Assembly: GCA_003671275.1 (NCBI GenBank)
Contig: QWPB01000068.1
Coordinates: 1 to 32,186 of the forward strand
Length of the DNA: 32,186 nucleotides
Origin: Planctomycetota bacterium
GTDB taxonomy: Bacteria; Planctomycetota; Planctomycetia; Planctomycetales; Planctomycetaceae
Reading direction: 5' to 3'
Every line of letters begins with the position of its first letter. Position 1 is the stretch's first letter. Below the pieces are notes generated by a model. The model was not told the origin of the DNA and did not search any database. It was given only the letters and a program-made list of their open reading frames with translations. The translations under genes were made by a program, and so were the position numbers. Positions 28,436-30,509 of the stretch are shown piece after piece.

Positions 28436-28717
28436 CCGGCAACTCTCCTGCACTCCGGTCCAATCCGAACCGCTGCATAGTACCTAACCGCCGCCCCCTG
28501 AAGAAGGATTCACTGCTACTCGTTGAAATCACGTACTCGCGTTCGGAAAGTCGGTGCGACAGACAATCCTGTCTGTCGCAGGCCCCCAAAGCCGCTGCTC
28601 GCTCTCCGATCGAGGGGCTGGCACATGGCCTGCCCGGCCACTTCTTTCGGCCATTGCCGGTCCACAAGTCCAACACGGACGGTTATCTCTCCAGCGAATC
28701 GTTCAGGACTGAGGGCT
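28436..28717. other. Gene-less spacer upstream of recJ
   Basis: No gene is evident in these 282 bp downstream of the oxygenase-like gene and upstream of recJ. It holds the recJ ribosome site (AGGAGAG, 28449-28443 on the minus strand) and the 10-bp palindrome of the dispersed repeat. No strong -35/-10 pair stands out. Confidence 0.45.
28556..28579. repeat. Palindromic intergenic repeat, copy 2 (perfect 10-bp hairpin)
   Basis: GCGACAGACA (28556-28565) pairs perfectly with TGTCTGTCGC (28570-28579) around the 4-nt loop ATCC. The inner 20 bases match the minus strand of 8306-8325 at 17 positions, so this looks like a second copy of the same dispersed element. It could also terminate transcription of the oxygenase-like gene, but no T-tract follows. 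Confidence 0.7.
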
Positions 28718-29344
28718 TCACTTGTCGGTAAAGGGCCGATTGCCAAAGCCCTGATGAAGCTGGTTTGCCAATGCCTCCAGATGAACGGGACTTCTGTCTG
28801 TCAATCTCGCGTATGGAACCTTCAGGTCTGGAAGGACAAAGTACACCAGGGAAGAACGCGACACGCTCTTCGGTGGATTCCGCACAGCATGGTCCATGAA
28901 TGGAATTCGGCCCCCTGAAAGAACGGTGAGCAAAGATCCGGTGAAGACGATGGCTTCATCCTCTAATATGTCCACCTTGTGGGGGACTCCACGTGGAAAA
29001 ATGACCAGCCCTTCATGCGAGGCTTTCACCAAGGTCAACAGATTCCCATCCTCATGACGGTCCTGGAGATACTCCCGGTCTTCACGTCGGTACTGATCCG
29101 CGTAGGCACAGAACTGCAGATAAGAATTGTCGCGAATCGGAATACGGCACTCCGCATGGAACGCGACACAGATTGCTTCCAGCAACCGCTCGGCGATCGC
29201 TGATATCCCCGACTCGTAGCATGTCGTCTCCTGGTACAATCGCGAGTCCGAGAACGAATGCTGAAGATGATCCATTCGATATTTGTGCCGATAGCAATAC
29301 CGCTCGCACAGATCGACTCGATTGGTGGTGCAGGACCGCTCCAT
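28718..29344 (-). CDS. 2-oxoglutarate/Fe(II) oxygenase-like protein (isopenicillin N synthase fold), 5' end problematic
   Basis: The C-terminal half of an IPNS-type 2OG-Fe(II) dioxygenase. The metal triad fits the family: H97 and D99 in HEDGN, H152 in DHAVRN (55 residues later, against 56 in IPNS), and an R-x-S pair at R163/S165 that normally binds the cosubstrate. The ATG at 29344 yields 208 aa, shorter than the usual ~300 aa. The same frame stays open upstream to a TGA at 29585-29587, and the added sequence resembles the missing N-terminal half, but it holds no usable in-frame start. Strand layout: recJ lies downstream on the same strand and an FAD protein is divergent. The substrate is unknown. 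A frameshift, sequencing error or decaying gene are all possible. Confidence 0.75.
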   Translation of the reverse strand: MERSCTTNRVDLCERYCYRHKYRMDHLQHSFSDSRLYQETTCYESGISAIAERLLEAICVAFHAECRIPIRDNSYLQFCAYADQYRREDREYLQDRHEDGNLLTLVKASHEGLVIFPRGVPHKVDILEDEAIVFTGSLLTVLSGGRIPFMDHAVRNPPKSVSRSSLVYFVLPDLKVPYARLTDRSPVHLEALANQLHQGFGNRPFTDK

Positions 29345-29583
29345 GCCGAATGGAAGAAAGCCATCCGTCCGCTCCGGAAATGCAAAGGACTCCTTGGTGT
29401 CCGGGGAGAGTTCGGAATAACAAGAGATGATCTTTCCGAAGTGCCGGTCGAGACTCTGAGGGAGTCGGATCGTGCAGTGCCCTTCGGCGATCAGTGCCTG
29501 AGCACACGCCTCATAGTCACACTGCGGAAAGAATCGCTCTGGATCGGAGAGTACGACAGCCCTGTGCCCCGTGAAGGAATCAT
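29345..29583 (-). pseudogene. In-frame N-terminal half of the oxygenase with an out-of-frame start
   Basis: Reading the oxygenase frame upstream of 29344 gives about 80 residues with family-like texture, including FFPQCDYEACAQALIAEGH and FGKIISCYSELSPDTKESF. The only strong start site is ATG at 29583, preceded by GGGAGGGGTGAA, but it is one base out of frame and reads to a stop at 29491. One base missing near this start would reconcile them. This could be a sequencing error, a mutation or a decoy start. Confidence 0.55.
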
Positions 29584-29666
29584 TTCACCCCTCCCTGATC
29601 GCCGCTTGGTGTTGCGTCTCCGAGTCGAGCGCGAGTCACTTGCCGCAGTGACTCCCCTCATCGGTA

Positions 29667-30509
29667 GTGGGATCGCGCCACGAGGGGATTCGCATCCGGT
29701 GGGGCAACGCAAGTCGTTTCGAGCCGTATGGTCGGGACGAAGCGGGGCCGTGGTGTGGTTACCAAGTGTGGCGAGCGGATTTCGACGCCATGCTGCTGGA
29801 GCGGGCCCGCGAAGTGGAAGTGGAGATATTCCAGCCCTGTACCGCCAGCAGGGTGTTGACGGAGAACGGCGCGGTCTCGGGCGTACTCACCTCGGCGGGC
29901 CTGATGACTGCCCCAGTGGTCGTGGACGCTACCGGACGTGCGCATTGGCTGGGAACGGAGCTGGAGATCAAACGGCGAGTTCATTCTCCGAGTCTGGTGG
30001 CTCGCTACGGTTACGCGGAAGGGGCACTTCCCACACTCGATCCGTCACCATTGCTGGTGGGAAATTCATCCGGATGGTTGTGGACGGCACTGGTACGTCC
30101 CGGACTTTACCAGTGGACTCGAGTCGCTCTGGACGGTTCCCGGATACCCCGAGATTGGCAGCCAGACGAATTTTGCGACTTGGTTCCGCGAGGTCTGCCT
30201 CGAGGTGTCGATGTGACCTGGAGGTTGTCGCAGAAAGTCGCGAGCCCCGGTTGGTTCATGGTGGGAGATGCCGCCGCAGTCCTCGATCCGACCTCCGCCA
30301 AGGGAGTGCTGAAAGCACTGCTCTCCGGGATCACTGCGGGAAAACTGATCTCCGCCGTGACAACCGGATCGGCCCCCGCCGACGAGGTCGCCAATATCTA
30401 CAATGATTGGTTGTCCGGCTGGTTTGTCAGTGACGCGGATCAGTTGGGGAAATTCTATCAATCCCTGGGTGTTCGGGAATTGGGAATGCGACGAGATGGA
30501 ACGCCCTGA
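29667..30509 (+). CDS. FAD-dependent oxidoreductase, N-terminally truncated
   Basis: The C-terminal two thirds of a flavoprotein of the halogenase/geranylgeranyl-reductase-like monooxygenase group. It has WRADFDAMLLERA near 35-47 (the usual 'R-x-x-F-D' step), VVVDATGR (84-91) and the FAD-binding GDAAAVLDPTSAKG (200-213). The first ~100-120 residues, which should hold the GxGxxG dinucleotide fold, are missing. The frame begins at a GTG with no ribosome site, and a stop lies 16 bp upstream at 29649-29651. Only about 80 bp separate it from the divergent oxygenase-like gene. As seen it cannot bind FAD normally, so it is probably a remnant, unless the true N-terminus lies in another frame through a shift. 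Confidence 0.7.
   Translation: MGSRHEGIRIRWGNASRFEPYGRDEAGPWCGYQVWRADFDAMLLERAREVEVEIFQPCTASRVLTENGAVSGVLTSAGLMTAPVVVDATGRAHWLGTELEIKRRVHSPSLVARYGYAEGALPTLDPSPLLVGNSSGWLWTALVRPGLYQWTRVALDGSRIPRDWQPDEFCDLVPRGLPRGVDVTWRLSQKVASPGWFMVGDAAAVLDPTSAKGVLKALLSGITAGKLISAVTTGSAPADEVANIYNDWLSGWFVSDADQLGKFYQSLGVRELGMRRDGTP

Follow-up and report, generated by a model that had tools for sequence, protein, structure and literature searches.

The DNA analysed here (the window, 32,186 nucleotides) makes up contig C27 in full, in a draft planctomycete genome of 198 contigs and 5.03 Mb that is rated 99.2 % complete. Two open frames stand head to head in it, as an earlier note on this DNA had described: a frame resembling FAD-dependent monooxygenases on the plus strand, open from 29652, and a frame resembling 2-oxoglutarate (2OG)-Fe(II) oxygenases on the minus strand, open from 29584. 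The FAD frame runs over 29652-30506 plus its stop, has its first start codon, a GTG, at 29667, and is recognisably homologous to relatives over 29658-30509 (70 % identity to the relative in genome G032 from 29658 on). The oxygenase frame runs over 29584-28721 (28718-29584 with its stop), and its first ATG, GTG or TTG appears only at 29344. The features between the two frames are a Shine-Dalgarno-like AGGGAGGGG with an ATG on the minus strand (29581-29596) and a hairpin (29633-29654) immediately before the point at which homology of the FAD gene to its intact relatives ends (29655-29662). Beyond the other end of the oxygenase, between it and RecJ, lies a near-perfect inverted repeat, GCGACAGACAATCCTGTCTGTCGCA, at 28556-28580; with up to 3 mismatches allowed, the window contains one copy.

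Truncation of the FAD gene

Judged by comparison with its relatives, the FAD gene is truly truncated, missing their residues 1 to ~67, i.e. the front fifth. We searched 101 genomes of the family with the FAD gene and obtained four matches above 200 bits, counting the window's own, the others being G032 (70 % identical), G008 (43 %) and G066 (40 %), and the next match stood at 45 bits. A profile search of 392 genomes of the phylum gave three above 200 bits, namely the window's own, G202 and G436, with the next at 154 bits; the 200-bit line for a close relative was chosen after these scores and the gaps between them were known. All five relatives (328-352 aa, with their ends as we cut them) carry an N-terminal FAD-binding Rossmann motif (GxGxxG) followed by PGE(T/S)xHPG, while the frame in the window begins at residue ~68 and has no Rossmann motif. 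The absence of this part, claimed in the earlier note, is thus borne out. In the comparison with related planctomycetes, which the note had proposed, all five relatives keep the N-terminus, and none of the family and phylum matches above 200 bits is a short form. No plus-strand frame in 29301-29661 holds the missing head. Elsewhere in the window's genome, searches for the head returned only generic dinucleotide-binding matches.

Over 281 codons the remnant aligns to the G032 gene without a stop or gap, and the differences fall 62/48/144 on the three codon positions, which suggests that the truncation is recent relative to the split from G032. An open frame of 280 aa from GTG 29667, free of stops, might be taken to speak for a short protein that works in some new role. 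We regard this as scarcely conceivable, as such a protein would be without the FAD-binding N-terminus that 5/5 relatives keep, would have no short-form relative among the matches above 200 bits, and would lack a partner, described below, that is missing from the window's genome. Without the Rossmann GxGxxG and PGE(T/S) motifs, the remnant is expected not to bind FAD and probably has no activity. One of the relatives may itself be damaged near its C-terminus, a single TAA lying inside the matched stretch of the G008 gene.

A partner gene beside the FAD gene in relatives

In 5/5 relatives a homologous gene for a protein of ~800 aa lies directly upstream of the FAD gene or overlaps it at its end (L025:7283-9787 and L027:7393-9669, both on the minus strand, L026:1899-4256, L095:5302-7731 and L096:5397-7838, each directly before the QhpG/LodB-like flavoenzyme). 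The window's genome yielded no match to this partner, either with a single query at E<=10 or with a profile that, as a positive control, found the partner in 2 of 392 genomes at E<1e-130; this genome is a binned draft, from which the partner's contig can be missing. In this protein a GLGSPFxEDxKLCAAL...WP block and a WDG..GP block are invariant in 5/5 members. Cys611 (in KLCAAL) and Trp666 (in WDG), ~55 residues apart, are likewise invariant in all five, among ~100 invariant columns.

We found no match for the partner among PDB sequences at E<=10, and across Pfam and NCBIfam the five members gave nothing beyond a TAT signal in one of them and chance-level matches. One of the latter, at 0.073, was to the gamma subunit of quinohemoprotein amine dehydrogenase; no LodA-type model appeared for any of the five. 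A literature search by title brought up nothing that we recognised as describing this family, which is no proof of novelty.

The FAD gene is more similar to its G032 counterpart (70 %) than RecJ is (61 %), and this would fit a horizontal spread of the FAD gene together with its partner. Plasmids carry matches to the FAD gene in 19 records, the ten listed being 26-30 % identical.

The junction

DNA homology to G032 begins abruptly at 29662, by blastn and by local alignments under two scoring schemes, and protein homology begins at 29658. The earlier note had read RVERESLAAVTPL, upstream of this point, as a possible frameshifted remnant resembling the V-G-E-S-L segment of FAD halogenase-like proteins. 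We aligned the three plus-strand translations of the 361 bp leading up to the junction with the five intact FAD N-termini, and the best local score was 32, against an average of 32.1 for dinucleotide shuffles (149 of 300 of which reach 32). Among 300 pieces drawn at random from the window, 198 reach this score as well. The resemblance of RVERESLAAVTPL is therefore at chance level and we rejected it as a remnant. The same test covers the HPS- and ESL-like strings that can be picked out by eye in two different frames upstream of the junction.

The hairpin before the breakpoint, GAGTCACT-6-AGTGACTC (29633-29654), occurs as a single exact copy in the window's genome. One copy with exact arms is found in the congener G027, in another context and, by eye, with longer arms, so we rejected a shared operator; the junction hairpin looks terminator-like instead. 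A scan for promoters and terminators gave no more signals than in shuffled sequence.

Given such an abrupt break, within ~70 bp of the start signals of the oxygenase, we considered whether two unrelated pieces of DNA had been joined at ~29655 by the assembler, with the true FAD N-terminus and the partner dropping out during assembly or binning. The draft is split into 198 contigs, and neither of the congeners G027 and G069 (71 and 66 % complete) offers a sister site of the junction. The neighbours of RecJ and PspA are not the same in relatives, so they are uninformative on the junction and synteny cannot vouch for the join. Against a chimera, the junction sequence occurs once in the genome and has no repeat that would invite a misjoin, and the partner and the FAD head, barring the generic dinucleotide-binding matches, are nowhere else in it. 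We thus favour a real junction over an assembly artefact, and rate the chimera as rather unlikely. A repeat-mediated join was rejected: the junction is single-copy, is without a tandem repeat and has only short repeats within 29500-29760.

The oxygenase and its relatives

By its sequence features and modelled fold, the minus-strand gene is a 2OG-Fe(II) oxygenase and is not truncated. It matches PF03171 at 24.1-24.7 bits, above the cut-off of 23, and H177, D179, H232, R243 and S245 are invariant in 9/9 aligned sequences as the HxD...H and RxS motifs. We take H177, D179 and H232 to be the putative iron triad and R243 to be the putative 2OG-binding arginine. The AlphaFold model (mean pLDDT 79, with residues 1-20 below 50) matches 2OG oxygenases in Foldseek at E-values of 1.2e-14 to 7.4e-13 among the 50 matches listed. 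In score, fold, HxD...H motif and arginine the protein agrees with the superfamily; it departs from it in having its start codon out of frame and in its identity to the structures listed by Foldseek, which is 12-22 %.

With the oxygenase alone as query, the genome contig search gave no matches; an alignment as query gave nine loci, in Massilia, Pseudoduganella, Acidovorax, Variovorax and others. The Massilia and Pseudoduganella proteins are 55 and 54 % identical over the best tblastn segment, and 52 and 51 % over the alignment. In its own phylum the oxygenase recurs in one other genome only (1/101, G035, at 30 %), the same one being found among the 392. This distribution, together with a G+C content of 0.543, where RecJ and the CsdA-like neighbour have 0.60-0.61, makes a horizontal gain of the oxygenase likely. 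Eight plasmid records hold matches to it, at up to 44.5 %, and viral contigs hold none.

The G035 gene (L028:2763-3602), the only planctomycete relative found, has by eye transketolase-, radical-SAM-, ATP-grasp- and kinase-like neighbours, and possibly belongs to a biosynthetic cluster. In three betaproteobacterial loci a gene for a LysE-type exporter (PF01810) follows the oxygenase (L087:5893-6525, L088:5829-6437 and L091:5823-6446), the count being three of the five loci with ORFs listed, out of nine in all. These exporters hint at an amino-acid-like product; none lies beside the oxygenase in the window.

The idea of a decaying two-gene redox locus, also raised in the earlier note, finds no echo in either set of relatives. 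No oxygenase occurs in the stretches fetched around the five FAD relatives, and no FAD gene occurs in the five of nine oxygenase loci whose ORFs were listed.

An offset at the start of the oxygenase

The start of the oxygenase had been called broken. This holds in so far as its frame contains no ATG, GTG or TTG before 29344, and fails in that no loss of sequence is visible: a strong Shine-Dalgarno sequence, AGGGAGGGG (29596-29588), and an ATG (29583-29581) are present at about the start site of the homologues, one base off the oxygenase frame. The frame from this ATG closes at a stop at 29491. The conserved D-Y is preceded by an ATG at a distance of ~24 residues in two of the homologous loci (L086 and L087), and homology to Massilia and Pseudoduganella begins at residue 21 of the window's frame, that is at 29524, so the offset must fall within 29524-29583. 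It could be either a real mutation or an error in the sequence.

We also weighed the possibility that the oxygenase is functional as it stands, by programmed frameshifting after ATG 29583 or by internal initiation at ATG 29344. Differences from Massilia by codon position (97/78/193) point to a maintained frame, the catalytic residues are intact, the strong ribosome-binding site is rightly placed, and one homologue (L089:4300-5091, on a contig titled Stenomitos frigidus) likewise has no in-frame start near its 5' end, whereas such a start is present in the near-identical L090 and L091. However, an in-frame ATG precedes the match in six of the nine loci (L086, L087 and L090-L093), with a GTG in L088 and L094, indicating that recoding is not a trait of the family, and a start at ATG 29344 would cost 80 N-terminal residues, among them helices and a strand of the model. 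We hold a functional oxygenase of this kind to be very unlikely.

Origin of the two lesions

The earlier note had both genes damaged at one junction and offered a deletion scar or decay among its explanations. For the FAD gene, whose 5/5 relatives keep both head and partner, a deletion scar or decay is supported; a single event striking both genes is not, the start signals of the oxygenase being present. A loss of DNA at ~29655 would leave the oxygenase frame where it is, since an intact ribosome-binding site and ATG separate that frame from the junction, and the two lesions are probably not one event. The reading that we consider probable is that the FAD gene is a pseudogene that has lost its head and its partner, that the oxygenase is a separately acquired gene with a one-base offset at its start, and that the two lesions differ in kind.

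Under this reading, the pseudogene would represent a FAD monooxygenase of the QhpG/LodB/GoxB-like kind, of which four fifths, the C-terminal part, are left. The first ~67 codons and the adjacent gene for the ~800-aa partner may have been lost by deletion, or may have been replaced by DNA bearing the oxygenase. The latter gene, related to betaproteobacterial proteins, would have been acquired separately, presumably by horizontal transfer, and a separate small indel, or a sequence error, within its first ~20 codons would part the ATG from the frame. The case looks like mostly ordinary decay of an accessory gene, and what is found in the window, a decapitated accessory gene beside a gene with an offset in its start region, matters little in itself. 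It does carry a warning for annotation, in that it would be wrong to label the products of the two genes as a functional FAD oxidoreductase and an oxygenase of 208 aa. The sole lead worth following is the partner family next to QhpG/LodB-like flavoenzymes in the relatives, a candidate new class of quinoproteins.

Relation to described systems

In NCBIfam the FAD remnant comes closest to QhpG (NF049967), at 2.9e-22 (79.2 bits), with the intact G032 relative at 7.6e-33 (114 bits), both below the cut-off of 240 bits; the QhpG entry PDB 7CTQ is also among the matches of the G032 relative, at 8.3e-05. QhpG is described as a flavoprotein that dihydroxylates a peptidyl tryptophan of quinohemoprotein amine dehydrogenase, and the FAD contacts named in that account include Ala14, Glu34, Arg36 and Glu42 (PMC7876137). 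They lie in the N-terminal region that the remnant is without. Matches of the FAD gene to LodB and GoxB (NF038171, NF038174) are below cut-off as well, the order of closeness being QhpG, then GoxB and LodB. LodB and GoxB are reported to mature LodA and GoxA, two amino-acid oxidases with CTQ, and LodA-like proteins are reported to pair with LodB-like proteins and to share a Cys and a Trp that become CTQ (PMC4417212).

An adjacent gene for the substrate protein is expected of a maturase of the QhpG, LodB and GoxB type; the window is without both the partner and the FAD N-terminus. In the relatives, the large partner has, among its ~100 invariant columns, a Cys and a Trp that could be counterparts of the pair that forms CTQ in LodA-like proteins (PMC4417212). 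The arrangement differs from that of QhpG in that the neighbour of the FAD gene is a protein of ~800 aa, and from LodA and GoxA in that the partner has no match to solved structures, nor to Pfam or NCBIfam beyond the TAT signal and chance level. We put forward, tentatively and as a possibility with the odds against it, that the remnant marks the loss of one copy of a two-gene quinoprotein system that would be new to the literature, in which a QhpG/LodB-like flavoenzyme would mature an ~800-aa Cys/Trp protein whose gene lies directly before its own; the partner, by detectable sequence unrelated to LodA and GoxA, might then be a new class with a tryptophan-derived cofactor.

Flavin-dependent halogenases are a further point of likeness, the intact G032 relative matching 8zop (7.9e-35), its closest solved sequence, and CmlS 3i3l (1.5e-17). 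In contrast to halogenases, the context of the FAD gene in the relatives is a conserved protein partner and not a biosynthetic cluster. In G008 a gene for a DyP-type peroxidase (PF21105, PF20628; L026:55-1818) lies directly before the partner gene, a neighbour that would fit an H2O2-forming oxidase.
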